Source: Methanococcoides sp.
GTDB lineage: Archaea; Halobacteriota; Methanosarcinia; Methanosarcinales; Methanosarcinaceae
NCBI GenBank assembly: GCA_021108275.1
Contig: JAIORD010000041.1
Location: 62,001-126,000, forward strand
Direction of reading: 5' to 3'
DNA length: 64,000 nucleotides
Shown here piece after piece: positions 3,358 through 20,736 of the stretch (its first letter is position 1; each line of letters begins with the position of its first letter). A program made the translations under genes and the position numbers. The notes under the pieces were generated by a model, which worked only from the letters and a program-made list of their open reading frames with translations, had not been told where the DNA came from and made no database searches.

Positions 3358-4503
3358 TCAAGGATTGTGCTCATGATGTGCTTCAAGCTGTTCGATCTCA
3401 ATTCCATAACGCTTGAATACATCTGTTACGAAGGTATCGACGATCTTCACAAGTTCTTTTTTTTCCATCTTCGAGATTGCTGAAAGTATCTTTAACTTAA
3501 GGATCTCATTCTTTCCTGTTTCAATCAGTTCTAATTGTGGATCTTCGAAGTATGCAGTTACATTCATTTTTACTGTATCTGTATCAGAATTCAAGAACAT
3601 CTTGATATGGCCAATGAACTCGGGGCTATGTTCCATAACTTCTGCTTTTATGTTCGTCATGAGCTCCTTTGCGATCAGCTTTGCCCTATCGATATCTGTC
3701 CTGTCTTTGATCTTATACTCTGCAGCATAGGTTGCAACACCTGATGCATCAATGGAGCTTTCTGTTTCCTGCTCATTCCTGATAAGCTCCATATCGTTCT
3801 TGCTGACAAGGGATATGCCATTTGCAGGGGCAATGGATGTTTTTCTCATCTCTTTTGGCTCCGTTTCCTGAACTTTGGCATCAAGAGATCTATTAAGCAG
3901 CTCATCAGGAAGTATCATGTCCATGAAACTATAGAACTTCTCATCGCTATTATTTGCAGAGATCCGTATTATTTTTGCTTTTCTGTTGAGCTGCTGTACA
4001 GATTCTTCTACAATAGATATTTGTATTTTGTCCATAAGGTCGATCTTATTGATGGCAAGGATATCTGCATCCTCTATCTGGCGAGTGGAGAAATGTCTCA
4101 TCTCTTTTAACAGGTGTTTGAACCTGCTGCCATCTATAAGGGTCACAAGAGGTGCTATTTCCGCACCTTCTCCAAGGTCCATCAGTTCGATCTCTCTTTT
4201 GATCACATTTGGAAATGCAATTCCGGTAGGTTCTATTATAAGGACATCCGGATCGTAAGAATTAAAAAGTGTTATCACAGTTGAGCGAAGTCCCATCTTG
4301 AGTGAACAACAGATACATCCGTTAGTTATCTCTTTTGTATCGAAACCAAACTTCTTGATTATGTCGCCATCGATCCCGATCTCTCCTATCTCGTTGACAA
4401 TAATAGCAACTTTGTGCCCCTTGTCCACAAGGTACTTCCCCGTATTGATTATCGTGGTAGTTTTTCCGCTTCCAAGAAAACCTCCAACTACAAGTGTTAA
4501 CAT
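3358..4503 (-). CDS. CobW/HypB-type G3E GTPase (putative metallochaperone)
   Basis: A G3E-family P-loop GTPase of 381 residues. The Walker A motif 'GGFLGSGKTT' is at the N-terminus, the family metal-binding CxCC is 'GCICCSLK' (near residue 64), 'IIEPTGIAFP' follows, and the base-specificity motif is 'INKIDLMD' (near 155). The C-terminal half ('HSPEFIGHIKMFL') is not the usual CobW_C domain and has no His-rich tail. G3E GTPases load metals or cofactors (Ni, Co, Zn, B12) into target proteins. Here it follows the hydantoinase-family gene by 108 nt on the same strand, with a CDF-like membrane protein beyond. The inferred role is metal or corrinoid handling linked to the neighbouring methyltransferases; the actual client is not shown. 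Confidence 0.8.
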   Translation of the reverse strand: MLTLVVGGFLGSGKTTTIINTGKYLVDKGHKVAIIVNEIGEIGIDGDIIKKFGFDTKEITNGCICCSLKMGLRSTVITLFNSYDPDVLIIEPTGIAFPNVIKREIELMDLGEGAEIAPLVTLIDGSRFKHLLKEMRHFSTRQIEDADILAINKIDLMDKIQISIVEESVQQLNRKAKIIRISANNSDEKFYSFMDMILPDELLNRSLDAKVQETEPKEMRKTSIAPANGISLVSKNDMELIRNEQETESSIDASGVATYAAEYKIKDRTDIDRAKLIAKELMTNIKAEVMEHSPEFIGHIKMFLNSDTDTVKMNVTAYFEDPQLELIETGKNEILKLKILSAISKMEKKELVKIVDTFVTDVFKRYGIEIEQLEAHHEHNP

Positions 4504-4611: not shown

Positions 4612-6528
4612 TTAAACAAAACCCACGCCTACGAATATAAGTTTAGTCTCCATCGGAGGATGATGCCAACCTTCCGGTGAGAGGCGTTCTTCTGTAACAC
4701 TTATGCTTACTTTGTTTTCCATGATTCCACACTCTGCCATATAGGAATGGATCAAAGCCCTGCCATGCTCGTTAACAAATTCAAGTGCTTCTACATAAGT
4801 ATTGAACTTCTCTCTTCTTTCAGGTGAATAGACAAAGAAATCTTTATCAGGCTCGCTAAGCGATAATGGCCTTATCATTATTTCCAGACGTTTGACACCT
4901 TTACCAAACAAAGCTCCGGCTGCATTCCCTACATCTGAATGTCGAGGAACTATGATGTCCGCTTTTACAAAGGAGCTGATCTCATCCTTATAAGCAGATA
5001 CAGGCCCTCCAATAAGCACTACTGGCAATTCTACATCGAACCTTGCTTTGAAATTGTGATCAACGATACCACCGATGCTCTCCGAATCAACGCCTGGCAA
5101 CAGGTACGACATCAGTTCGAATGCCATATTTCTCGCAAAACGTTTTTTGAGTAAAGAACACATTTCATATTTGCCTATATTGTTCAATTTAGCCAGAACA
5201 TCGGCAGCCAGTTTTGAAGCTTCTTGATCCCATTGATCATATTCTCCCAGGACATGCAATACATCTGTAGGAGTAAAACCAATAGCTTGCACAAGCCTTT
5301 TGCTTATCAGAGAGCTTAAGACAAAAGTTGAAGGTGGTCCTTTAAGCATTATGGAAATGTCCTCAAATGAGACCGGATCATCTCCAATAACAGACATTAC
5401 CACCTTTTCATTTTCATTCAATTCAATAGGTTCCTGCCTGGTCCCTACAAAGAACTTTGTAGGCTGTATATTTTCATCCAGCAGTCTGCGTGCGATCCAT
5501 TTAATGTTCTTAAGTTTTTCAGGAAAACCGGGATATTTGACCGCTGCAACACAGATCGGCTCCACTCTTCTGGGACCAATGACCAGATCCTTATCTCTTG
5601 TCCATATATGACTATCACCCCCCATTGCCGATGTTTCCATGTGGATAGCTTTTACACGCGTCTGCCATTTTCCGACAACTGCACCAGACTCACTAATATC
5701 TGGTACGCCCTCACAGAGCATTGATACATCTGTACTTGTACCGCCGACATCTATCACAACGCAACTTTCAAGACCTGAAAGAAAAGAAGCGCCAATAAGA
5801 CTTGCAGCAGGACCTGAAAATATCGTCTCGATAGGTCTTTCAAGTGCATCCCTGATACCAACGACAGAACCGTCACATTTGAGCATAAGTAATCTTGCAT
5901 CCATATCACGCCTTTTTATCTCAGAGATCATCGCTTCTATGAAATTCTCACCGACAGGTAAAAGCTGTGCATTAAGGTATGCTGTAACTGCTCTTTCGTA
6001 AGCACCAATATCCTGTGTTAGCTCGTGCCCACAAACGACTGGCATTCCCGTAAGCTTTGATATGAGCTGTTTTGTCTTTAGCTCATGCTCAGGATTCCTT
6101 ATACTGAAATGGGACGATACCGCAAAAGCAGAAACCCTATCCTTTGAACCAAGTACGAAATTATTTATAGCATCAACATCAAGCGGCTTTAATTCATCCC
6201 CCATGTGATCATGACCTCCTGCTACAAAGATGATATCACTTGTCGGGAAATTCTTATTGAGAGAATGATCCCCTATGAGAATAAGACCCACAGGATAGCC
6301 AGTATCTTCCAGCACAGTATTCGTTGCAAGTGTGGTTGAAACCGATATGACATCTACATTTTTCAGATACTTTTCATCGATCCCGTCAATTGCATTCCGT
6401 ATTCCTTCAATATGATCAGGATAGGTGGTCAATGCCTTGTTGGACATCACTACAGACCTGTCACGATCACTTATAAGAATTGCATCAGTATAGGTTCCAC
6501 CTGCATCAATACCAAGACTATATTGCAT
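4612..6528 (-). CDS. Hydantoinase/oxoprolinase-family protein (HyuA-like ATPase)
   Basis: A 638-residue protein of the ASKHA-fold hydantoinase/oxoprolinase family. The phosphate-binding motifs are 'GIDAGGTYTDA' at the N-terminus and 'VVIDVGGTSTDVSML' near residue 260. 'IETIFSGPAASLIGA' is the typical family stretch between them, and 'VVLIGGPVSAY' near 525 is the adenosine-side motif. There is no adjacent HyuB-type subunit, so ordinary hydantoin or 5-oxoproline hydrolysis is doubtful. In methanogens, relatives of this family and RamA share the fold and act in ATP-driven activation; that link is inference. ATG at 6528 is preceded by 'GGTGAAATA'. The gene begins 39 nt after the CDF-like gene and precedes the G3E GTPase, which suggests a three-gene operon. 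Confidence 0.8.
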   Translation of the reverse strand: MQYSLGIDAGGTYTDAILISDRDRSVVMSNKALTTYPDHIEGIRNAIDGIDEKYLKNVDVISVSTTLATNTVLEDTGYPVGLILIGDHSLNKNFPTSDIIFVAGGHDHMGDELKPLDVDAINNFVLGSKDRVSAFAVSSHFSIRNPEHELKTKQLISKLTGMPVVCGHELTQDIGAYERAVTAYLNAQLLPVGENFIEAMISEIKRRDMDARLLMLKCDGSVVGIRDALERPIETIFSGPAASLIGASFLSGLESCVVIDVGGTSTDVSMLCEGVPDISESGAVVGKWQTRVKAIHMETSAMGGDSHIWTRDKDLVIGPRRVEPICVAAVKYPGFPEKLKNIKWIARRLLDENIQPTKFFVGTRQEPIELNENEKVVMSVIGDDPVSFEDISIMLKGPPSTFVLSSLISKRLVQAIGFTPTDVLHVLGEYDQWDQEASKLAADVLAKLNNIGKYEMCSLLKKRFARNMAFELMSYLLPGVDSESIGGIVDHNFKARFDVELPVVLIGGPVSAYKDEISSFVKADIIVPRHSDVGNAAGALFGKGVKRLEIMIRPLSLSEPDKDFFVYSPERREKFNTYVEALEFVNEHGRALIHSYMAECGIMENKVSISVTEERLSPEGWHHPPMETKLIFVGVGFV

Positions 6529-8461: not shown

Positions 8462-9847
8462 TTAGAGACCGTAGTTCTCTGGCAGGAAGACCTTAACTTC
8501 TTCCTTGTACTTGGTCATGCAATCGCTCATGAAAGTATCCTGGTCGTCTGTGAGTGCCATAAGTGCAGCTTTTGCGTCTGCAAGGGCACCCTTCTCGAAT
8601 TTGGTCATTTCGAGCTTGCCAGCTATGCCTTCTTCCATGATCTCTACTGACTTGATAGCAGCGTTCTTTGCACGGAGGTAAATGTCATTACCGTCCTTGA
8701 CAATAGCTTCACCCACGCGGTATGCGTTGTCATATGCAAGAACATAGCCCTGTGGGTCCCTGTACTTGTCAGAAAGCATAAAGAGGTCCCTGAGAGTCTT
8801 TTCCTGACCTGTTGCTGTTGCTGTGTTCATCAAAGCACAGTCGTAAGCAAGGGACTCTCCCCAGCACTGTACAGAGGTACCACCGAATTCTGCGTGATAT
8901 TCGACAGATTCATTTGACCAAAGGTCACAGCACTGCATAACAAGGTTACCCATGACATCCGAGTGTGCACATGTGGAGGATTTACCTTCCTGTGAGATAG
9001 GTACACCGGAGATAGCTTTTATGATGGTGTTCTCATATCCACAGTCCTTACCTGGGCCAACTGCACCAGCTTCATATGCTGCAAGTGATCTTGGTGCAGA
9101 GATAGCTCTTGCGATGATAGCAAGGGTGTGTGCAAGGTTCTTGTCAAGAAGACCGCCACCAATGAACATTGCAGTGTTTGCTTCGGAACAGTCTGTGTCA
9201 CCTGCGGAAACTACTCCGTGCTTCTTTGCGACAGAGCTGATCTCCTGCCAGAGGAAGTCCATATCCATGGTTCCAAGGCATCCAATAGCATAGAGCATAC
9301 CAGGAACATCGTTCCTCAGGATAGCATAATCGAATACTTCTTTACCACCCATTGATTCAACTGAAAGAAGGTCAGCACCGTTTGCAGCAACCTCTTCAAA
9401 GGACTCCATCAGGACATTGAACTTGTCTCCTCTAAGACCAAGGAAATCACGGTCTTCACGAACGTCACCAGGGGTGTGTCTTAATGCACATTTGATGCCG
9501 TATTCATCGTGGAACTCTTCCATAATGGTCTTCTGTGCGTGTGCGACCTCTCCTCCCCATGTTGGGTTGTTGGTCATCTGCTCGACGTGTTCTGTCTCAA
9601 GGACAACAGCAGGGAAACCTACCTGGACCATACGGTTCATGATATCTGTGGTTATCCTCTGGTATTCTTTGACGAGCTTCTCTTTTGATGCACCTGCTTC
9701 AGGCCTTGGTGCATAGTTAACTTCAGGTGTAGTGTATCCGGCACCGATTTCGAGTCCAAGTCCTGCTTTTACAGGGTGCTTACATTTACCAAAGATCATG
9801 TCATCTGCACTGTCATACGCCATTTTTGTATATCTGTTGATTGCCAT
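8462..9847 (-). CDS. mtaB: Methanol:corrinoid methyltransferase MtaB, copy 1
   Basis: The zinc enzyme that cleaves methanol and methylates the Co(I) corrinoid of MtaC, in the cytoplasm. The 461-residue length equals that of Methanosarcina MtaB, and the sequence follows it from end to end ('GLGLEIGAGYT', 'VNYAPRPEAGASKEKL', 'PENYGL' at the C-terminus). The two cysteine zinc ligands are in 'AGDTDCSEANTAMF' and 'VGPGKDCGYEN'. I start at ATG 9847 (MAINRYTK) because GAGGTGA lies just upstream and the protein then aligns with the family; the upstream codons add only three residues. It is 13 nt after mtaC, so the two are co-transcribed. No in-frame amber codon is needed, unlike the methylamine methyltransferases. 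Confidence 0.97.
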   Translation of the reverse strand: MAINRYTKMAYDSADDMIFGKCKHPVKAGLGLEIGAGYTTPEVNYAPRPEAGASKEKLVKEYQRITTDIMNRMVQVGFPAVVLETEHVEQMTNNPTWGGEVAHAQKTIMEEFHDEYGIKCALRHTPGDVREDRDFLGLRGDKFNVLMESFEEVAANGADLLSVESMGGKEVFDYAILRNDVPGMLYAIGCLGTMDMDFLWQEISSVAKKHGVVSAGDTDCSEANTAMFIGGGLLDKNLAHTLAIIARAISAPRSLAAYEAGAVGPGKDCGYENTIIKAISGVPISQEGKSSTCAHSDVMGNLVMQCCDLWSNESVEYHAEFGGTSVQCWGESLAYDCALMNTATATGQEKTLRDLFMLSDKYRDPQGYVLAYDNAYRVGEAIVKDGNDIYLRAKNAAIKSVEIMEEGIAGKLEMTKFEKGALADAKAALMALTDDQDTFMSDCMTKYKEEVKVFLPENYGL

Positions 9848-9860
9848 TTTTCTCACCTCT

Positions 9861-10631
9861 TCAGTGTTTGTGGAATTCTTCTTTCAGTGCGCTAATGCTA
9901 GATCCTGCAAGGATCTTGTCAGCGATCTTAGGTGCGTCAGCAGCTTCTTCGCCATAAATACCCAGATCGTAGGTAGATACGAAGTCCTGGTTTACAGCTC
10001 CACCACCACAAGCGAATGGAACATTGAGACCTGCTTCAAGTAACCTGTCGTTGACTGCTTTGAAAGCATACATTGTTGTAGTCATCAGTGCAGTACCTGT
10101 AAGCATGAGAGGTTTCTCTGCCTTGACAGCTTCAATTACCTCATCTACAGGAACATCACGGCCAAGGTCAACTACCTCATATCCGTTTGCTCTGAGAAGT
10201 GCAGCGACGATAGATTTACCGATATCGTGAACATCTCCTTCTGCAACATGGCAGACTACCTTTCCTTTAGAAACAGGAGTTTCATCGGACTGTGACTTGC
10301 AGAACTCGATACCGTCGAGCATTGCATCTGCAGACATCATTACGTTTGGCAGGAAGATCGTTCCCTGGTCATACAGATCAGTAACTACTTTCATACCAAC
10401 CATTAGAGCATCGTCGATCAGAGCAATTGGATTCTTTCCTGCTTTGATGGCTTTTTCAAGACCTTCGATAACGTCGTCTTCTTCGCCATCAAAGATTGCT
10501 ACTGCAATTTCCCTGAACAGTGGATCCTTAGGATAAAGTTCAGCTGCAGCATCTTCAGGCGTCATTGCCTTTTCCAATTTCACATTGTATCTTACCAGAA
10601 TTTCACTGGGGTCTATATCCAACCTGGTCAT
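9861..10631 (-). CDS. mtaC: Methanol corrinoid protein MtaC, copy 1
   Basis: A 256-residue corrinoid protein that accepts the methyl group from methanol via MtaB and presents it to MtaA. The N-terminal helical cap domain runs to about residue 120 ('DDALMVGMKVVTDLYDQG'). The B12-binding Rossmann domain follows, with the lower-ligand histidine in 'EGDVHDIGKSIV', then 'VVDLGRDVPVDEV' and 'FACGGGAVNQDFV'. It is first in the mtaCB pair, with a long AT-rich leader upstream. ATG at 10631 is preceded on the minus strand by the purine-rich 'aaaggaaggaagc', a good ribosome-binding site. It is very similar to copy 2 at 12823. Confidence 0.97.
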   Translation of the reverse strand: MTRLDIDPSEILVRYNVKLEKAMTPEDAAAELYPKDPLFREIAVAIFDGEEDDVIEGLEKAIKAGKNPIALIDDALMVGMKVVTDLYDQGTIFLPNVMMSADAMLDGIEFCKSQSDETPVSKGKVVCHVAEGDVHDIGKSIVAALLRANGYEVVDLGRDVPVDEVIEAVKAEKPLMLTGTALMTTTMYAFKAVNDRLLEAGLNVPFACGGGAVNQDFVSTYDLGIYGEEAADAPKIADKILAGSSISALKEEFHKH

Positions 10632-11427: not shown

Positions 11428-12810
11428 TCAGTAACCGTAATTTTCAGGTCTGAAGCTCTCCATCGTTGAAAGTTTGTTTAGATTCTCTTCAATGAACACA
11501 TCCTTTTCATCAGTAAGTGAATGAAGGGACTTGATCGCCTTTGCAAGAGAAGCTTTCTCAAAGCGTGAAAGTTCAAGCTGTCCGCGAGAACCTTCATCAA
11601 CGATATTACATGCCTCTATCGCAGCATTCTTAGCACGTAGATAGATATCATTACCATCCTTTACGATCGATTCACCTATCCTATAAGCATTATCGAATGC
11701 AAGTATGAATGCCTGAGGATCCCTATATCTGTCGGAGACCATGAAAACATCCCTGAATACCTTCGCATATCCAGCCTCTATTGCCGTGTTCATCATGGAA
11801 CAATCATATGATAGGGTCTCCCCCCAACATTGAACACTTGTACCACCAAACTCACCACGGTACTCCACAGATTCATTGGACCAGAGATCGCAGCATTGCA
11901 TAGCAAGATTACCCATGACATCAGAGTGAGCACAAGTTGAGCCCTTTCCTTCCTGTGAGATGGGGACACCAGATATGGCCTTGATTATGGTGTTCTCATA
12001 CCCACAATCTTTACCGGGACCAACAGCTCCTGCTTCATATGCAGCAAGTGAACGCGGTGCTGAAACCGCCCTTGCCACAACAGCAAGGGTGTGGGCAAGC
12101 TTTCTGTCAAGTAGACCACCTGCAATGAACATTGCAGTATTAGCCTGAGAACAATCAGTATCCCCGGCAGCCACAACATCATGTTTCTTTGCTATCTTGC
12201 TAATATCTTCCCATATGAACTCTACATCAAGAGTGCCGAGGATACCTATTGAAAAAAGCACACCTGAGAGATCGTTCCTTATTATTGATGAATCAAAGAC
12301 GCTCTTACCACCAAGTGATTCAATGGAAAGCATATCTGCCCCATTGGAAGCAACCTCTTCAAAAGATTCCAGCAAAAGACCATAAGAGTCACCCCTAAGA
12401 TCGAGGGATTCTTTTCCGCCCCGAATATCAGCAGGCGTATGGCGCAATGCACATTTGATGCCATATTCATCATAAAACTCTTCCATGATGGTCTTCTGTT
12501 CATGTGCTATCTCAGCACCCCATGACGGATTAACGGTCATTTGTTGCACATGTTCCGTTTCAAGCACAACAGAAGGGAAACCGACCTGTACCATTCGTTG
12601 CAGGACATCAGTTGTGATCTTCTGGTATTCTACAATAAGTTTCTCTTTAGACTCACCAGCTGTTGGCCTGGGTGCATAATTAACTTCCGCCGAAGTATAT
12701 CCTGCTCCAATCTCCAGATCAAAACCGGTCTTAACTGGATAGATAGAATGTCCAAAGACCATATCTTCGAAGTCATCATAAGCCATTTTATTATAACGTT
12801 TTAAACTCAA
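11428..12810 (-). CDS. mtaB: Methanol:corrinoid methyltransferase MtaB, copy 2
   Basis: A second MtaB, collinear with copy 1 over its whole length. The zinc-ligand motifs are intact ('AGDTDCSQANTAMF', 'VGPGKDCGYEN') and the 'PENYGY' C-terminus is present. The ATG at 12816 sits only 1-2 nt from GGAGG, whereas TTG at 12810 is 7 nt away and gives a protein starting 'SLKRYNKMAYD', aligned with copy 1. I therefore prefer TTG 12810. Divergence from copy 1 is clear in the last 50 residues ('SLTDEKDVFIEENLNKLSTM'). The pair probably differs in expression or in affinity, as reported for mtaCB1/2/3 isozymes in Methanosarcina. It follows mtaC copy 2 directly; the ribosome-binding site overlaps the mtaC stop region. 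Confidence 0.96.
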   Translation of the reverse strand: MSLKRYNKMAYDDFEDMVFGHSIYPVKTGFDLEIGAGYTSAEVNYAPRPTAGESKEKLIVEYQKITTDVLQRMVQVGFPSVVLETEHVQQMTVNPSWGAEIAHEQKTIMEEFYDEYGIKCALRHTPADIRGGKESLDLRGDSYGLLLESFEEVASNGADMLSIESLGGKSVFDSSIIRNDLSGVLFSIGILGTLDVEFIWEDISKIAKKHDVVAAGDTDCSQANTAMFIAGGLLDRKLAHTLAVVARAVSAPRSLAAYEAGAVGPGKDCGYENTIIKAISGVPISQEGKGSTCAHSDVMGNLAMQCCDLWSNESVEYRGEFGGTSVQCWGETLSYDCSMMNTAIEAGYAKVFRDVFMVSDRYRDPQAFILAFDNAYRIGESIVKDGNDIYLRAKNAAIEACNIVDEGSRGQLELSRFEKASLAKAIKSLHSLTDEKDVFIEENLNKLSTMESFRPENYGY

Positions 12811-12822
12811 ACCCATTCCTCC

Positions 12823-13587
12823 TCAGTGTTTATGGAACTCCTTCCTGAGCTGGCCAATATTCAAGCCGTTGATGATAGCATCTGCGATCTTTGGTACGTC
12901 AGAAGCTTCTTCACAATAAAGGCCAAGTTCATACTGGGACACAAAATCCTGTGTCACCGCACCGCCTCCACACACAACAGGTACATTGATGTCACTTTCA
13001 AGCAACCGGGAATTCACATCCTGGAAACCAATCATCGTTGTCGTCATTAACGACGTTCCCGTAAGCATAATGGGGTTTTCCCTTTTGACAGCCGCAATGA
13101 CCTCTTCCACACAGACATCCTTTCCAAGGTCTACAACTTCATACCCCTTCGCCCTGAGAAGAACGGTCACGATCTTCTTACCAATATCATGGATATCCCC
13201 TTCCACAACATAGGAAACGATCTTACCCTTGTATTCATGCTCCTGACCGGATCGTTCTTTGCAATATTCAATACCTTCGATCATTGCCTGCGCCGAAATA
13301 ATGACATCCGGAAGGTAGAGAACACCGTCATCATAAAGAGTGGAAACTATTTCCATACCCACCATCAGTGCATTGTTAATAAGGTTCAGTGGATCAAGTC
13401 CATTATTGATCGCATTCTGGATACTTTCCACAACCTCATCTTCATCTCCTTCAAAGACGGCTTTCGCGACTTCCCGTATATTCTTTTCCACAGGGAATAA
13501 TTTCTCAGCCACCTCCTCAGGGGTCATTTCCTTTTCCACTTTTACATTATATCGTGTTAGTATACGTTGAGGATTAATATCGATCAC
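12823..13587 (-). CDS. mtaC: Methanol corrinoid protein MtaC, copy 2
   Basis: The 254-residue partner of MtaB copy 2. The lower-ligand motif is 'EGDIHDIGKKIV', and 'VVDLGKDVCVEEV' and 'VVCGGGAVTQDFV' mark the B12 domain. The start is GTG at 13587, with GGAGGG 7 nt upstream. The C-terminal 'LRKEFHKH' matches the 'LKEEFHKH' of copy 1, as expected from duplication of the whole mtaCB pair. The 120 bp upstream (13588-13707) hold a TATA-like run near 13610 and a weak 7-bp inverted repeat (GGTAAAT 13647 / ATTTACC 13676). That repeat could end the sensor gene transcript. Confidence 0.96.
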   Translation of the reverse strand: MIDINPQRILTRYNVKVEKEMTPEEVAEKLFPVEKNIREVAKAVFEGDEDEVVESIQNAINNGLDPLNLINNALMVGMEIVSTLYDDGVLYLPDVIISAQAMIEGIEYCKERSGQEHEYKGKIVSYVVEGDIHDIGKKIVTVLLRAKGYEVVDLGKDVCVEEVIAAVKRENPIMLTGTSLMTTTMIGFQDVNSRLLESDINVPVVCGGGAVTQDFVSQYELGLYCEEASDVPKIADAIINGLNIGQLRKEFHKH

Positions 13588-13707: not shown

Positions 13708-16700
13708 TCAATTTATGCCAACCTCCCGACAGATAGCAATGATCGCATCCTGACGATTCCATTTTCCCTTTTGCAATCTTGTTTCCACGGACAGGAGCAT
13801 TCCAGTACCTGTAACCAAAGGTAACCTGAACTCGACCTTATTACCTGTAAGTGCATCCCCAAAGAGCTTTGCTGCTTCGAGTACCTTATTATGAGAATGC
13901 ATTTTTATGAAATTCATGCCAGTTATCTCTTCTTTTGAGTGAGTTAGTTTTTTTGAGACTGCCTCATTGCTGTAGATTACACAACCCTCACTATCCAGAA
14001 CAAGGATCAGATCATCAATACCATCAACGAGTGATTTAAGGTCGTTCTGGTTCTTTTGCATATCGACTTCTGATTCAATGCGACCGATGATGGATCCCAT
14101 CTGTTCAGCAACTGTTTCTACTGATGTACGAATATTGTATGGCATTTCATATTCAGTACGCGATGCAAGGAAAAGAACAGCCACTTCTTCCTCTTGATAT
14201 TTCACCGGGATCACAGCTGTTGCCAGCAGTCCTTCATCTACCCTGTTATCACGCTTTGTCACAGGATAGATATCGGAATACATTTTATAGAGCGGATAAC
14301 CCATCATGAAAAATCGACTCTGCATGGAATCTGCTGCATAGTGAGAATTATTTTTTACAAAATCTTGCGAAAGTCCTTTATGAGATATAAGGTTCAATCC
14401 ACCATTGTTCTTGTCTATTAGATAGAGACTGCCAGAATCGATACTATCTATATGTAAAGCAAATTCCAGAAGCTGGTCAAAGGTTTCCTGAAGGTCCCCT
14501 GAAGGAGTGAAGAAATTACCTACCTCGGACTCAATGTTCAAGAATTGATTGATCCTTTTACGCTCAGTGATATCCATGATGATACCCTGTATATGGATAA
14601 GATCTCCCTCCTCATCATACTGCGGAGTAGATCTTTCGACAACCCATCGAACATCATCAGACCTGGTGATTATCCTGTATTCGAGACGATATTCTGAAGC
14701 ATTTTCTGCAAATTTCCGGGCAAAATAGCTGTGCACCCTTTCCGCATCAGAAGGGTGAATAATGTCACCGTATTGTAGTTTTCCAGAAAGAAAATCCGAC
14801 GGAGAATATCCGAATGTATCGATGTTCTCAGAAACGAATTCAACTGGCCATCCCGACTGAGCATTCCAGAAAAATACAATTGCAGGACTGCTCTTGATAA
14901 CTGTTTGTAATACCTTTTGTACTTCCAGTGAATCAAGCAGTTCCTGTTCTTTCTTTTTCTGCTCAGTTATGTCACGTATGATAGCCATTACAGCAGGCTT
15001 ACCCTGATCATATATGCGCGAAGGACTTATTTCAACAGGAACAATTTCACCCTTACGGTCAAGTAGAGTGACCTCGAATTTATTAGAACTGCTCTTCTGT
15101 TTATCCATAATCTTCGAGAACTGCTTAGTCACCATTCGCCGATATTCAGGTGACAGATAAGAAGAAAAACTGGAATTATGCACCTTTTGGGGAGTAAAAC
15201 CAACGATCTCACAGAACATTGAATTTACAAATTCCAGCACATCATCACGAATTATGATAATGCCGTCATTCCCGTTCTTAACGAGATTGGAGTATTTTTC
15301 TTCCGACACACGTAAAGCTTCATCAGCTTCTCTATGCTCGATCAGTTTTTTCATTTCCTGGATCAATAGTGCCAGGTTACGAGTATCAAGATCATCATAA
15401 GGAGAATCTTTGTTGCCAACTCCCAGAACGAATCGCTCACCTTCTTCATTGGACATGGGAATATCAAAATGACGTGTGATAGTACCGTTCACATCATGGT
15501 CTTTTTCCATTTCAAAAAGATCATTCGGGTAATTTGAAAGCAAATATTTCCCACTTGAGCTCACTTTGATAACTCTGCTGGAAATGTCAAACGGATAATC
15601 ACCCAGGTCCTTGCTCAGTTCGTATTGACCCTTTTCGTCTGTTAAAAGAAGGAAGACCATATCAAAAGAATTGTCTTCATGGATACTGACAAGATAACCG
15701 ATATTGCTCAGAGTTAGTCTTGCAGCAGCCTCCAAAGTGAAATGTAATATATCTTCAATGGATTCATCGGACATCTGGTTGAGTTCAAGAAGCGTCTCAA
15801 GACGAGACTCGTTTAATTGGAGAGAATGTTCACCCATCTTCCTCAGGGTGACATCTTCAAATATGCCCATCCCGCCCTGTAATGATCCATCTATGATCAA
15901 AGAACTGAAAGTGATATGCAGGACAGAATTATTGTTATTTATAATTAGGTGAACATCATCCTCATAGTTCCTCATCTTTCCCGAGATCACATCACTTATG
16001 TCGCTACGAACATCTTTGCAACTAAAAAGATCAAGGACATTATAGCCTGTGATGACATCACGTAAGTGCTCGAATATCTCATTGAATACTTCATTTGAAT
16101 TCGTTATAAGCCCTTTCCGGTCAAAACGAACTATGCCTATGGGTGATTTTTCAAAGATAATCCTGAAGTTCTTTTCAGTATCAACAAGAGCTTTCTCTGC
16201 TTTTCTTTTTTCCCTAATGTCATTTAAGTTCAGCATTACCGCAGACTGTCCTTCGTATTCAATGTAGGAAGTAGTGATCTCCACTGGGATCTCATCTTCA
16301 GTAAGTGAAACAATATTTGCTTCATAAATATTGGAATCATTCTTCTTGCTTGAAAGACATTTATTGTATTTTTTAGAGACCATTCTGCGATATTCAAGCG
16401 AAATATGATCAAGGAAAGGCGAACCAATGATATTGTCTTTTGATGATCCTGTCAGCTCACAGAACTTAGCATTTGTATAACGTACTTCATTGTCAAGGAC
16501 AACAATTATCCCTTCGTTGCCTTTTTCGATCAACGTTGAATATTGACTTTCGTATCGACTACTTTCCTCTTTTGAGGTTTTCAATTCGTCAATATATTCG
16601 AAGGTAACGAGAACAACACAGTCATCATTGTATCTTATCTGTCTCCCGTTGATCATTACCGATCTTGTACCAGCATTGACAAAAGGATATGTCAGCCCAA

Positions 16701-17058
16701 AGTCCTCAAGGGGGAAACCTTCTTTACAAACTCTGCTAAGCCTGCCAAACAGTTCAGGTGAATTTCTCTTGAAAGCAACAAATATGTCAGTATCATTTTC
16801 CAAAAGTTCAGCAGGTTTGATACTGAACATTTTATAGAATGAATCATTCGCATATAATAGATTCAGATTCGGATCAAGTATTATGAGAGCTTCTTTCAAC
16901 GATGCTACTATAGCCTCAAAATAGTTTCCAGGATCATCGGAAAAAGAGAAAGAACTACAGCTATCAGATTCAGATATTCCATCAGACACAACTTTAGATG
17001 AAGTCTTTTTGACAGATATATTATCGGTCTTTTCCATGGAACTGTATATCTTATACAT
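13708..17058 (-). CDS. Large multi-PAS/GAF sensor protein without a kinase domain
   Basis: A 1116-residue soluble protein. In order it shows PAS (about 45-158), PAS (168-285), PAS (293-408), a GAF-like segment (415-575), PAS (585-700), PAS with PAC (715-835, 'GIIMDITERKR'), GAF (838-992) and PAS (1005-1114). It ends at 'IAICREVGIN' with no HisKA, HATPase, receiver or DNA-binding domain, and only 120 bp separate it from mtaC. It has no membrane segment or signal peptide. Repeats PAS2 and PAS4 are alike ('EYRRMVSKKYNK' and 'EYRRMVTKQFSK'), which points to internal duplication. Its place between mtaCB and ramA suggests control of methanol metabolism, comparable in idea to the MsmS-type sensors of Methanosarcina. 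The output partner is unknown. ATG at 17058 touches GGGAG; ATG 17037 is the alternative. Confidence 0.85.
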   Translation of the reverse strand: MYKIYSSMEKTDNISVKKTSSKVVSDGISESDSCSSFSFSDDPGNYFEAIVASLKEALIILDPNLNLLYANDSFYKMFSIKPAELLENDTDIFVAFKRNSPELFGRLSRVCKEGFPLEDFGLTYPFVNAGTRSVMINGRQIRYNDDCVVLVTFEYIDELKTSKEESSRYESQYSTLIEKGNEGIIVVLDNEVRYTNAKFCELTGSSKDNIIGSPFLDHISLEYRRMVSKKYNKCLSSKKNDSNIYEANIVSLTEDEIPVEITTSYIEYEGQSAVMLNLNDIREKRKAEKALVDTEKNFRIIFEKSPIGIVRFDRKGLITNSNEVFNEIFEHLRDVITGYNVLDLFSCKDVRSDISDVISGKMRNYEDDVHLIINNNNSVLHITFSSLIIDGSLQGGMGIFEDVTLRKMGEHSLQLNESRLETLLELNQMSDESIEDILHFTLEAAARLTLSNIGYLVSIHEDNSFDMVFLLLTDEKGQYELSKDLGDYPFDISSRVIKVSSSGKYLLSNYPNDLFEMEKDHDVNGTITRHFDIPMSNEEGERFVLGVGNKDSPYDDLDTRNLALLIQEMKKLIEHREADEALRVSEEKYSNLVKNGNDGIIIIRDDVLEFVNSMFCEIVGFTPQKVHNSSFSSYLSPEYRRMVTKQFSKIMDKQKSSSNKFEVTLLDRKGEIVPVEISPSRIYDQGKPAVMAIIRDITEQKKKEQELLDSLEVQKVLQTVIKSSPAIVFFWNAQSGWPVEFVSENIDTFGYSPSDFLSGKLQYGDIIHPSDAERVHSYFARKFAENASEYRLEYRIITRSDDVRWVVERSTPQYDEEGDLIHIQGIIMDITERKRINQFLNIESEVGNFFTPSGDLQETFDQLLEFALHIDSIDSGSLYLIDKNNGGLNLISHKGLSQDFVKNNSHYAADSMQSRFFMMGYPLYKMYSDIYPVTKRDNRVDEGLLATAVIPVKYQEEEVAVLFLASRTEYEMPYNIRTSVETVAEQMGSIIGRIESEVDMQKNQNDLKSLVDGIDDLILVLDSEGCVIYSNEAVSKKLTHSKEEITGMNFIKMHSHNKVLEAAKLFGDALTGNKVEFRLPLVTGTGMLLSVETRLQKGKWNRQDAIIAICREVGIN

Positions 17059-17372: not shown

Positions 17373-18983
17373 TTATTCCACTATTTGGAGATAATGCCAA
17401 TCGAGGACATTTTCCGGGCATGAATGAATACATTTCTGACAGTGTGCACCATCACAAAGATCAGTTCTTATTCTCACAGACCGATCCTTCTGTTCTAATG
17501 CATCGTTTGGACACACATCAACACATTTCTTACAGTCGATACAACCTTCCATATCGATTTGCAGAAATGTACCTATTTGGTCAACCACATGAAGCCCTTC
17601 ATTCCCAAGATCCGGAATATCCTTCTCGACGCGCTTTTCAATTTCTGGCACCTTAGTTACTTCATCGATTGTAGGAAGGCCTTTTTTCTTAAGATATTTT
17701 TTAAGTGTCTTGAAAGGCATACCCTCGTTCCAATAGGAAAGTTCAAGAATGTAAGCATCCTTGAATGCTTCATCCATTGCAAACATTACATGTGTGCCAA
17801 CTATCTCCACTGCAATCTCCTGAAGGTCCCATAATCGTTCTTCTGAAAGTAGTATTTCCCTTGCAACAATAAGAGAAGTGTTCCCTATCTGGCAGATCTT
17901 TGAGACGTTGTAAGGTATCATGCCAATACGATGAGCTTTTATCGCATCCATATAGGTACCGGCAGCACCGGCCATGTATGCGACCTCCACATCTTCCATT
18001 GCAATATTCGCAGCATTACATAATGTCAAATGACCGGCATGTATCGCACCGATAGCCCTTCCAGCTTCAGCAAGGTCTTTTTCTGTGAAATGTAGACCAT
18101 CCTGAAGGTGAAGTTTTTTATCAGGCGTATTTATATTTGGTAATTGTATGATTCCATTTTTTATGGCCTCATCAATAAGTGCAATAACACCGGTACCTGT
18201 GATGCCGATAGCATGCACATCACCATTTTTGAGAACATCACCGTTTTTATAGTTGACAAGGGAACCACTGACGGTGTTCATTTCCTCATCAAGAACGTAA
18301 TTCAAGACATCCCCATTGTTATATTCAACATCTGAGATCACAAATGGGCGTGCAATACTTCCGTCCCCGATCTCCTGACCTTCAAGTGCAGGACCTGCTG
18401 CTGCAGAACCTGTGAAGATGACATTACCGACCTTTAACGCCATTTCCGCATTGGTACCATAATCGGTTGCAATGGCTATCTTATCAGATTCAAGCATTCC
18501 GGACTTTACTATCAACGCAAGAGCATCTGCACCGACCTCGTGTTTGATGGCAGGTGGAATAACTACTTTACAATTAAGGAATTCGAGGCCTTTTACCTGA
18601 GTGCTGTCAATGATACAAGCATTCCTTTTTTGCTCCTCAATATTCATCAACTTCTTTTTTCGCTCTCCTGCATAAGCAAGGTCATCGATTGGAATCCCCT
18701 GGAACAATGATAATTGTATAGGATTTCCACATACAGCGATCCTCTCAACAAGTCCACCTTCCGGTTCAAGTTCATTAAGGATGTGGATGAATGCATTGAC
18801 AACAAGATCATGAGCTTTGTCCTGACCATATGTCATGGCAAAATCCAGATGATCCATAACGTTCGCACCGGGCAGAGGATTTCTCATTGTGATGACAGTT
18901 CTCTGTATCTCACCTGATTCAAGGTCTATTTTTTGTGCCCTGAAACCACTTGTACCAAGATCTATTGCAATTCCTGTTCGCAT
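17373..18983 (-). CDS. ramA: RamA-type corrinoid protein reductive activase
   Basis: A 536-residue iron-sulfur ATPase that reduces inactive Co(II) corrinoid to Co(I) in methyltransferase corrinoid proteins. The N-terminal ASKHA-like domain starts 'GIAIDLGTSGFRAQKID' and continues with 'AIATDYGTNAEMAL' and 'GITGTGVIALIDEAI'. The C-terminus carries two 4Fe-4S motifs, 'CIDCKKCVDVCP' (near 480) and 'CDGAHCQKCIHSCP' (near 510), as in RamA. ATG at 18983 is preceded by AGGAAGGTAA. It stands between the sensor gene and mtaA on the same strand. RamA was defined with methylamines, but homologues also activate MtaC; the substrate preference of this one is not shown by sequence. Confidence 0.93.
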   Translation of the reverse strand: MRTGIAIDLGTSGFRAQKIDLESGEIQRTVITMRNPLPGANVMDHLDFAMTYGQDKAHDLVVNAFIHILNELEPEGGLVERIAVCGNPIQLSLFQGIPIDDLAYAGERKKKLMNIEEQKRNACIIDSTQVKGLEFLNCKVVIPPAIKHEVGADALALIVKSGMLESDKIAIATDYGTNAEMALKVGNVIFTGSAAAGPALEGQEIGDGSIARPFVISDVEYNNGDVLNYVLDEEMNTVSGSLVNYKNGDVLKNGDVHAIGITGTGVIALIDEAIKNGIIQLPNINTPDKKLHLQDGLHFTEKDLAEAGRAIGAIHAGHLTLCNAANIAMEDVEVAYMAGAAGTYMDAIKAHRIGMIPYNVSKICQIGNTSLIVAREILLSEERLWDLQEIAVEIVGTHVMFAMDEAFKDAYILELSYWNEGMPFKTLKKYLKKKGLPTIDEVTKVPEIEKRVEKDIPDLGNEGLHVVDQIGTFLQIDMEGCIDCKKCVDVCPNDALEQKDRSVRIRTDLCDGAHCQKCIHSCPENVLDWHYLQIVE

Positions 18984-19127: not shown

Positions 19128-20144
19128 TTATGCAATGTATTCGTCCCTTGCTTCTACAAGGGCTTTAACATTCTCCACAGGAGTGTTTGGTGCAATACCA
19201 CATCCAGGAGAAAGAACTGCAATGCCATCTTCAAGAGCATTCTTTGAATCTGCTTTGACCTTTTCAACATCACCAGAAAGTAACGTGAAAGGACTGGACA
19301 CATTACCAACGATCGCAGCCCTGTCTCCGACAGTTTTGATAGCTCCTTTGAGGTCTGCTACCTTTTCCTCAATGCTAAGTCCTTCGAATTTACAGTCTGC
19401 CATCATACCAAGAATAGGAGTCACATTTCCACAAACATGAAGCACCATCGGACATTTAACTCCTTCTGCAAACCTTGCAAGCCTTGGCTTAAGCATCTTG
19501 TCAAATGTTTCAGGGTTCATAAGGTCAGGGGATGCTACAGGATCAGGCACACATATTACATCTGCACCAGCATCTGCCAGTGCATTTGCATACACTATGC
19601 ATGCATCTGTGGCAAAGTCAAGGATAGTCTCGAAGTCATCTGGTTTCTTGATAGACCATTTCATGAACTTCTTTACACTTACAAGATCGGATGCAAGGGT
19701 TACAGGCCCTTCCATGCCAGCTACCAGAGGAATTTTATCTCCAACTTTATCGATGATTATCTTTGTTGCTTCAAGCACAGCAGGTATTCTGCCATTGCTA
19801 AGAAGGTCATCGGGCATTACGAGATTGTCAACGTCTTTATATGGGTGATCAGTTACAGATGGTTGTCTGTTCTTTGTTCCCATATTAACTTCACAACCCA
19901 TAGCTTCTGCAAGAACTGTCAGACAATATGGATACCTTACAGCTTCAAGACCTGCGATCTCGTGTGATGCTACGGCGAGTGTTGCCAGCTTCTCTGCATC
20001 GGAATGAGCTTCAGGCCATTCTGCACCGGTCTGATCCATAAGATCAACTATGGCGGTCTGTGTTACAGAGACTACCGGGACTTTATCAACTGGTTCGCGG
20101 TTTAACGCTTTCAATAATCTTTCTTTTGGGTTTAAATCGGTCAT
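19128..20144 (-). CDS. mtaA: Methylcobamide:CoM methyltransferase MtaA
   Basis: A 338-residue zinc enzyme of the uroporphyrinogen decarboxylase fold that transfers the methyl group from methyl-MtaC to coenzyme M. Hallmarks are 'EPVDKVPVVSVTQT', 'EAMGCEVNMGTKNRQPSV', 'GMEGPVTLASDLVSVKKFM', the His/Cys zinc ligands in 'VLHVCGNV' and the third ligand in 'SPGCGIAPNTP'. The match to Methanosarcina MtaA is closer than to the methylamine enzyme MtbA in 'TKNRQPSVTDHPY'. The frame stays open upstream to 20303, but ATG 20144 follows GGAGTGA and gives the family length. It has its own promoter region and terminator, so it is probably a monocistronic unit. Confidence 0.95.
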   Translation of the reverse strand: MTDLNPKERLLKALNREPVDKVPVVSVTQTAIVDLMDQTGAEWPEAHSDAEKLATLAVASHEIAGLEAVRYPYCLTVLAEAMGCEVNMGTKNRQPSVTDHPYKDVDNLVMPDDLLSNGRIPAVLEATKIIIDKVGDKIPLVAGMEGPVTLASDLVSVKKFMKWSIKKPDDFETILDFATDACIVYANALADAGADVICVPDPVASPDLMNPETFDKMLKPRLARFAEGVKCPMVLHVCGNVTPILGMMADCKFEGLSIEEKVADLKGAIKTVGDRAAIVGNVSSPFTLLSGDVEKVKADSKNALEDGIAVLSPGCGIAPNTPVENVKALVEARDEYIA

Positions 20145-20736
20145 TTCGATCACTCCTTCATAATTCAAGACCCGGTACATCCGGATACTGATGTTTTTAG
20201 ATTGTCGTTCACACCATCCAATTAATCCAGAGATGGAACAACTGATTATTGGGTAGCTATACCCAAATTTCAAACTGGAATAATCATATATAAGCATATG
20301 CATGCTTCCTATTTAGTATAAATACGTTACTATATGACTCGTATTTTGAACAGTATTCTCTATTGAAATTATAATAGCTATTGATAGCGTTTTTCCTAAA
20401 TAAAAAATTTTCTGAAAAATTAACATATAATTTAATACCAATATACTTATATATGATACTTAATAATTTGAAAAATAAAACTAATATAAAAATAAAGCTA
20501 CTATTAAAAATCTATAATTAAATATATAGAAGTAATAAACGATATCAATAAGCATAATTTATAATAATTAGAATTAATTATTTAAAAAATAGCTATTTGA
20601 TAGTAGAAAAGTACATATATAAAATTATGAAATACCTGACATTATTAGAGGAAAAAAACAAAAAACAATATCTATTTTAAAAAAATGTCAAAGAAATGAA
20701 ATATAATTAATTATATTAGCCTAAAAAAATATTACA
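20145..20736. promoter_or_regulatory. Divergent AT-rich promoter region between mtaA and the phosphatase-like gene
   Basis: No gene is seen in these 592 bp. On the minus strand a TATA-like run near 20285-20296 would give mtaA a leader of about 120 nt. That leader contains TTGGGTA (20249-20255) and TACCCAA (20260-20266), a 7-bp stem with a 4-nt loop. From 20340 to 20736 the DNA is almost pure A/T. A TATA-like stretch near 20704-20717 lies about 25-30 nt before the start of the rightward gene, which may therefore be leaderless. Confidence 0.4.

Follow-up and report, generated by a model that had tools for sequence, protein, structure and literature searches.

Signal proteins built from PAS and GAF domains, and regulators of methyltransferase genes, have both been described in methanogens, and here we compare them with a gene from a Methanococcoides species. 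The gene lies within a methanol methyltransferase island on a 64,000-nt stretch of DNA (contig JAIORD010000041.1, positions 62,001 to 126,000; "the window") and encodes a protein of six PAS and two GAF domains, which we call PASQ. Three groups of described proteins are closest to it. First, MsmS and RdmS of Methanosarcina acetivorans are described as kinases (PMC6944256, PMC11784639). Second, MsrDE and MsrC are regulators that control mtaCB (PMC11619418), and Msr proteins combine a helix-turn-helix (HTH) with a DUF1724 domain (PMC11784639). Third, for archaeal REC-PAS-GAF proteins that lack an output, a mode of action via protein contact is expected (2018, PMC5847659). For Methanolobus vulcani, regulation of the methanol operon is stated as not known (PMC6855144). 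For the control of methanol genes in methylotrophic methanogens outside Methanosarcina, the PASQ family offers a concrete candidate, found in seven genera. A further point of comparison is NifL, a PAS sensor that works by protein contact rather than by phosphotransfer, and that retains a kinase-like C-terminal part.

Among openly licensed PMC papers, we found none on PASQ itself. Here, we argue, with a probability of roughly 60%, that PASQ is an intact, cytosolic PAS/GAF signal protein without an output domain that is dedicated to the methanol methyltransferase locus, and not a truncated kinase. The support comes from sequence and consists of a conserved PAS4-PAS5-GAF2-PAS6 core, a fixed C-terminus, a fixed neighborhood, and the corrinoid protein MtaC2, with which PASQ co-occurs and whose tree agrees with its own.

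An intact protein of PAS and GAF domains

The PASQ open reading frame (ORF) begins with ATG and encodes 1116 residues; in our own ORF calls, each start was set at the first start codon to follow a stop, which may make the ORFs overlong. With E-values allowed up to 10, Pfam matched PASQ to PAS and GAF families, over six segments for PAS and two for GAF_2, and found no HisKA, HATPase, REC, or HTH domain. An AlphaFold2 model built on a 34-row alignment places the domains in the order PAS1-PAS2-PAS3-GAF1-PAS4-PAS5-GAF2-PAS6, and its last strand ends at residue 1112, four residues short of the stop. With a mean predicted local distance difference test score (pLDDT) of 74.4 and a predicted template modeling score (pTM) of 0.31, the model is usable for the domains but not for their arrangement. 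An earlier reading of the letters alone (the original prediction) had described the same eight domains with a PAS domain at the end and no kinase, receiver, or DNA-binding part; both methods bear this out, and the profile search that it proposed for a cryptic kinase domain came back empty.

This architecture is not due to chance, since orthologues of 1116 residues with 92–93% identity over the full length occupy four loci, in Methanococcoides seepicolus (on two scaffolds), M. alaskense, and a metagenome-assembled genome. In M. seepicolus, scaffolds 18 (L002) and 6 (L004) both carry the mta island, at equal identities to the window; the scaffold pair recurs in genome G007 (5% estimated contamination), so that either the island is truly duplicated or the assembly is at fault. 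PASQ is found in all 11 Methanococcoides genomes (56–100% identity). In wider searches, which scored the best four to six candidates per genome, matches at E ≤ 1e-100 were present in 62 of 111 genomes and 9 of 14 genera of the taxonomic family, with the mta-linked gene being only part of them. The PAS5-GAF2-PAS6 module was found at E ≤ 1e-90 in 59 of 392 sampled genomes of the phylum, representing 8 of 136 genera, all of them within the window's taxonomic family. Two non-archaeal matches (L005 and L006) are partial PAS matches with 27% identity.

PAS2 and the four core domains are present in every one of the 34 mta-linked sequences, with PAS1, GAF1, and PAS3 present in 31, 19, and 14. All eight domains occur in the sequences from Methanococcoides, from genus g3, and from genus g9 apart from the g9 sequence at locus L062; PAS3 is absent in g8 and g12, and both PAS3 and GAF1 are absent in g10 and g11. 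Orthologues with the same domain order, which the original prediction had named as the finding that would speak against truncation, therefore exist across all of Methanococcoides and also in g3 and g9. The C-terminus is fixed: all 72 readable sequences stop 0–26 residues past the aligned end, a count that excludes 15 sequences without the C-terminal part (locus-end fragments or other PAS proteins). One of these 15, in L127, has a C-terminal sequence that resembles that of a kinase. Among the Pfam families listed for the 34 mta-linked members (25 of 31 families) and for 24 other members (25 of 27), there is no kinase, receiver, or HTH domain, and no kinase-like tail was seen in further paralogues that end after a GAF domain. 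Hence, the PASQ family is almost certainly intact and without an output domain.

No cysteine is invariant across the 34 mta-linked sequences; the best conserved are C1026 (29/34) and C616 (28/34). H768 is invariant, but within a motif common to PAS_3 domains. These patterns give no support for a conserved redox cysteine or heme ligand in PASQ.

The corrinoid protein beside PASQ

At all 51 mta-clade loci besides the window, an MtaC-family gene lies on the same strand as the PAS/GAF gene. The distance is 21–478 bp at 48 mta loci, with the MtaC gene downstream in 26 and upstream in 22 (all in g10). At the other three, which are of glycine-betaine type, the MtaC-like gene lies at 240 bp, 2.2 kb, and 2.4 kb; in the latter two, an opposite-strand gene intervenes, which at the one of these loci that was scanned encodes a histidine kinase. 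Neighbors were recognized through BLAST searches that used the proteins of the island as queries, along with selected Pfam scans, such that other gene types are only partly identified; the mta gene of genome G038 lies outside this analysis.

In a tree of MtaC proteins, the copies beside MtaB1 form an MtaC1 clade (42 sequences, support 100/97), as opposed to a less well-supported MtaC2 group (44 sequences, 83/82); neither includes the MtaC genes of g8 and g12. The tree leaves out the MtaC2 of genome G046, which is cut by a contig end, and that of G037, which is broken by an in-frame TAG (G037:C9:205514-206275) next to an open PAS/GAF gene. The corrinoid motif DxHxxG is kept in all MtaC sequences, and the MtaC2 of the window has both this motif and a score above the MtaC_Meth cut-off (Table 1). 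The gene order is MtaC2, PAS protein, MtaC1, MtaB1 in g10 and PAS protein, MtaC2, MtaC1, MtaB1 in g11. In both, MtaC2 lacks an MtaB to go with it, and the copy counts agree; for example, three MtaC and two MtaB copies are found among the matches listed for G058 and for G041. Six positions distinguish lone MtaC2, most of them not common to the betaine-locus copies, and we rejected the idea of a clear residue signature.

The PAS protein and MtaC2 appear to share a history. Glycine-betaine-type loci in three genomes (G007, G010, and G063) combine a relative of the PAS protein with a lone MtaC-like gene and with genes for a BCCT transporter, an MttB-family protein, and another corrinoid protein. 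At these loci (L080:8297-18390, L081:9044-16770, and L130:177-10000), the lone MtaC-like gene is additional to the corrinoid gene that follows the MttB-family gene. In the MtaC tree, the betaine-locus copies group with the lone MtaC2 of g10 and g11 (27 sequences, 99/98); in the PAS tree, the betaine-locus proteins form the sister group of the g10 and g11 proteins (28 sequences, 100/99). The agreement of the two trees suggests a single joint copying event. Within g10 and g11, both genes are present in 26 of 33 genomes and neither is present in the other seven, five of which keep mtaB. Judged from these patterns, the PAS protein and MtaC2 probably spread as a unit.

Candidate modes of action

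Since PAS6 is the only conserved exit of the protein, with no effector after it in the readable C-termini, protein-contact signaling is the natural reading, and PASQ probably acts in this way. The solubility of the PAS/GAF array suggests a cytosolic cue. The PAS and GAF domains would read a small-molecule or redox signal, the long helix between GAF2 and PAS6 may relay the change, and PAS6 would then dock on another protein rather than signal through a fused kinase. MtaC2, by virtue of its neighborhood and its shared history with the PAS protein, is the best candidate for the docked protein, although we regard it as a tentative assignment that may well prove wrong. The original prediction had offered protein contact as one of two readings, the one that survives, and had suggested RamA or an Msr-type regulator as examples of the partner. 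By neighborhood, both are less likely than MtaC2: ramA does not adjoin the PAS/GAF gene in g10 or g11, and in the window's genome ~29 kb separate this gene from the closest one of FilR1/Msr type.

If PASQ docks on MtaC2, the pair might read or control MtaC2 methylation or the corrinoid redox state, and so adjust expression or reactivation of the methanol system. A bolder version, which we consider unlikely, is that MtaC2 and the PAS protein together make up a corrinoid-based sensor of two parts, in which an MtaC2 freed from its methyltransferase carries a methyl or redox signal that the PAS protein reads, with the pair having been copied as a unit from methanol to betaine loci. The betaine methyltransferase at the latter already has a corrinoid protein of its own. 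Were the pairing with MtaC2 real, it would mean that a subunit of a cobalamin enzyme had been taken into service to carry a signal, and archaeal PAS/GAF proteins without an output would have a testable partner.

Several points weigh against this picture. Adjacent genes that are gained or lost together need not interact, and a single deletion could remove both. MtaC2 has its own MtaB2 in Methanococcoides, g3, and g9, where it may be a plain enzyme subunit, and even lone MtaC2 scored above the MtaC cut-off in 3/3 tested; the betaine-locus copies at L080 and L081 scored below it (363 and 350). An initial mirror-tree comparison favored MtaC2 in g10 (partial r 0.87). However, with control genes in Methanococcoides and g9, RamA, MtaB2, and MtaA correlate with the PAS protein as well or better, and we do not count specific co-evolution as support. 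No conserved cofactor ligand was identified in the 34-row alignment, and there are minor Pfam families beyond those listed for the family members.

The foremost alternative is that PASQ works like NifL, controlling a separate DNA-binding regulator of the Msr/FilR1 or ArsR type by direct contact, with MtaC2 a mere passenger gene. In g5 and g13, a gene for an ArsR-type HTH protein comes before the shorter paralogues and shares their strand. FilR1-type regulators are encoded in all 11 Methanococcoides genomes. In all seven g13 and g5 genomes compared, FilR1-type genes lie <10 kb from two of three mtaB copies; by contrast, in 11 PAS-bearing genomes, none of the matches listed lies <20 kb from the PAS-linked mta locus, and in the window's genome the nearest are a pair of genes. 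This distribution raises the possibility that the PAS protein takes the place of Msr control at the PAS-linked locus. Foldseek searches with the whole PASQ model returned PAS proteins at low template modeling (TM) scores, and the NifL-NifA complex (9qq6) matches the PAS parts in sequence and fold, although such a match is expected of any PAS protein. Arguing further against this alternative, no HTH gene is constant beside the mta-linked protein, and 3 of 11 Methanococcoides genomes lack the ArsR-type homologue at E ≤ 1e-20; the neighborhoods and these absences rule out a constant HTH partner for the mta-linked clade. We consider a NifL-like role unlikely, though it retains some weight.

A second alternative, which we find improbable, is direct control of an enzyme, such as RamA-driven MtaC reactivation, without a role in transcription. 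The gene sits between ramA and mtaC2 in Methanococcoides, and between a ramA-cobW pair and mtaC2 in g3, g8, g9, and part of g12; moreover, PAS distances follow RamA distances best in Methanococcoides. This arrangement does not extend to g10 and g11, where, as noted above, ramA is not a neighbor. Slightly less probable still is that PASQ is the output half of a phosphorelay, acted upon by a REC-only protein that is phosphorylated by an orphan kinase. Small PAS/GAF relatives directly followed by a REC gene occur in the window's genome and in G010 (L079 and L179), and methanogen REC-PAS-GAF fusions without an output are on record (PMC5847659), but the relatives that adjoin REC genes belong to a different, shorter subfamily, and the immediate neighbors at mta loci are mtaC2, ramA or cobW, and mtaC1, with no systematic search for REC genes made there. 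Last, the original prediction had offered loss of a kinase upon duplication or insertion of mtaCB, in keeping with the frequent occurrence of kinases among methanogen multi-PAS/GAF proteins (PMC6944256); the same-length, eight-domain orthologues, the shared C-terminus, and conservation across genera whose mtaCB arrangements differ leave this with next to no probability and, by the sequences of the genomes searched, refuted.

The island, relatives at other loci, and known systems

All genes of the island are on the minus strand, in the order mtaA, ramA, PASQ gene, mtaC2, mtaB2, mtaC1, mtaB1, a YaaH-type membrane protein gene, a cation-efflux gene, a hydantoinase-like gene, and a CobW gene (Table 1). 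In g3, g8, and g9, and at two of the three loci of g12, the PAS/GAF gene is instead directly preceded by a CobW gene. A scan for sigma-70-type promoters at the locus was not informative, the host being an archaeon.

Table 1. Coordinates in the window of PASQ, its domains, and neighboring genes
Feature	Position	Strand	Basis
PASQ, 1116-aa multi-PAS/GAF protein without output domain	13708..17058	-	ORF, Pfam, full-length orthologues
PAS1, residues 43-155	16594..16932	-	AlphaFold2 model, Pfam; 31/34 sequences
PAS2, residues 167-280	16219..16560	-	Pfam, model; 34/34
PAS3, residues ~290-402	15853..16191	-	Pfam, model; 14/34
GAF1, residues ~405-560	15379..15846	-	Pfam, model; 19/34
PAS4, residues ~575-697	14968..15336	-	Pfam, model; 34/34
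PAS5, residues ~710-830, PAS_3 type, most conserved domain	14569..14931	-	Pfam, model; 34/34
GAF2, residues ~850-990	14089..14511	-	Pfam GAF_2 855-991, model; 34/34
PAS6, residues ~1003-1113, C-terminal domain, end point of the family	13720..14052	-	model; 34/34; 72/72 readable C-termini
mtaC2, corrinoid protein, constant PASQ neighbor, 120 bp away	12823..13587	-	B12-binding domains; NCBIfam MtaC_Meth 441.8 bits (cut-off 420); tree
mtaB2, methanol:corrinoid methyltransferase adjoining mtaC2	11428..12816	-	PF12176, E 8.7e-224
mtaC1	9861..10631	-	separate clade in MtaC tree
mtaB1	8462..9856	-	PF12176, E 8.1e-239
RamA-type corrinoid reductive activase	17373..18983	-	TIGR04270, 788.7 bits
mtaA, methylcobamide:coenzyme M methyltransferase	19128..20303	-	NF040654, 540.4 bits
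CobW-type gene of the island	3358-4503	-	
Hydantoinase-like gene of the island	4612-6528	-	

Shorter members of the family lie beside trimethylamine genes (L085 and L146), dimethylamine-type genes (L179), and genes for URO-D-type methyltransferase and corrinoid proteins (L071, L072, L083, L092, L093, and L129); these substrate labels are partly based on typical protein lengths and motifs. Members at L078 and L145 are found among other genes, not at methyl loci. The g13 members follow an ArsR-type HTH gene, and no corrinoid gene was seen in their close surroundings. The ArsR-type protein (~258 aa) is encoded directly before the shorter paralogue, on the same strand, at L073, L074, L075, L077, and L140 in g13 and at L071, L072, and L129 in g5; at L141, L142, and L143, it occurs without the paralogue. 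The protein beside the g13 paralogues might be of the MM2441 type (PMC3510493), but the gene order is no clear match and we make no such assignment; its identification as MreA found no support. The relatives directly followed by a REC-type gene are ~300 aa long, with both genes on the same strand (L079:224-1597, on contig C22 of the window's genome, and L179:4450-5823); the L179 pair adjoins the dimethylamine-type methyltransferase locus.

How, then, does PASQ compare with the systems described so far? Like MsmS and RdmS, it is a cytosolic multi-PAS/GAF sensor linked to methyltransferase regulation (PMC6944256, PMC11784639); unlike them, and unlike sensor histidine kinases in general, it lacks the catalytic HisKA/HATPase part, ending in PAS6 instead, and it lacks an invariant cysteine. 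It possibly does the same job as the Msr regulators of the FilR1_middle family, i.e., control of mtaCB, but without a DNA-binding domain, since Pfam finds neither the HTH nor FilR1_middle (PF08350) in PASQ. NifL and PASQ are both PAS-based, but the kinase-like C-terminal part of NifL is absent in PASQ. PASQ also resembles the REC-PAS-GAF response regulators: these too are proteins of methanogens with PAS and GAF domains and no obvious output, for which contact has been proposed (PMC5847659). Output-less archaeal PAS/GAF signal proteins are thus a known kind. PASQ differs from them in having no REC domain, in being dedicated to a methyltransferase locus, and in having a constant corrinoid-protein neighbor; a REC-free family with these ties is, as far as our searches show, new.

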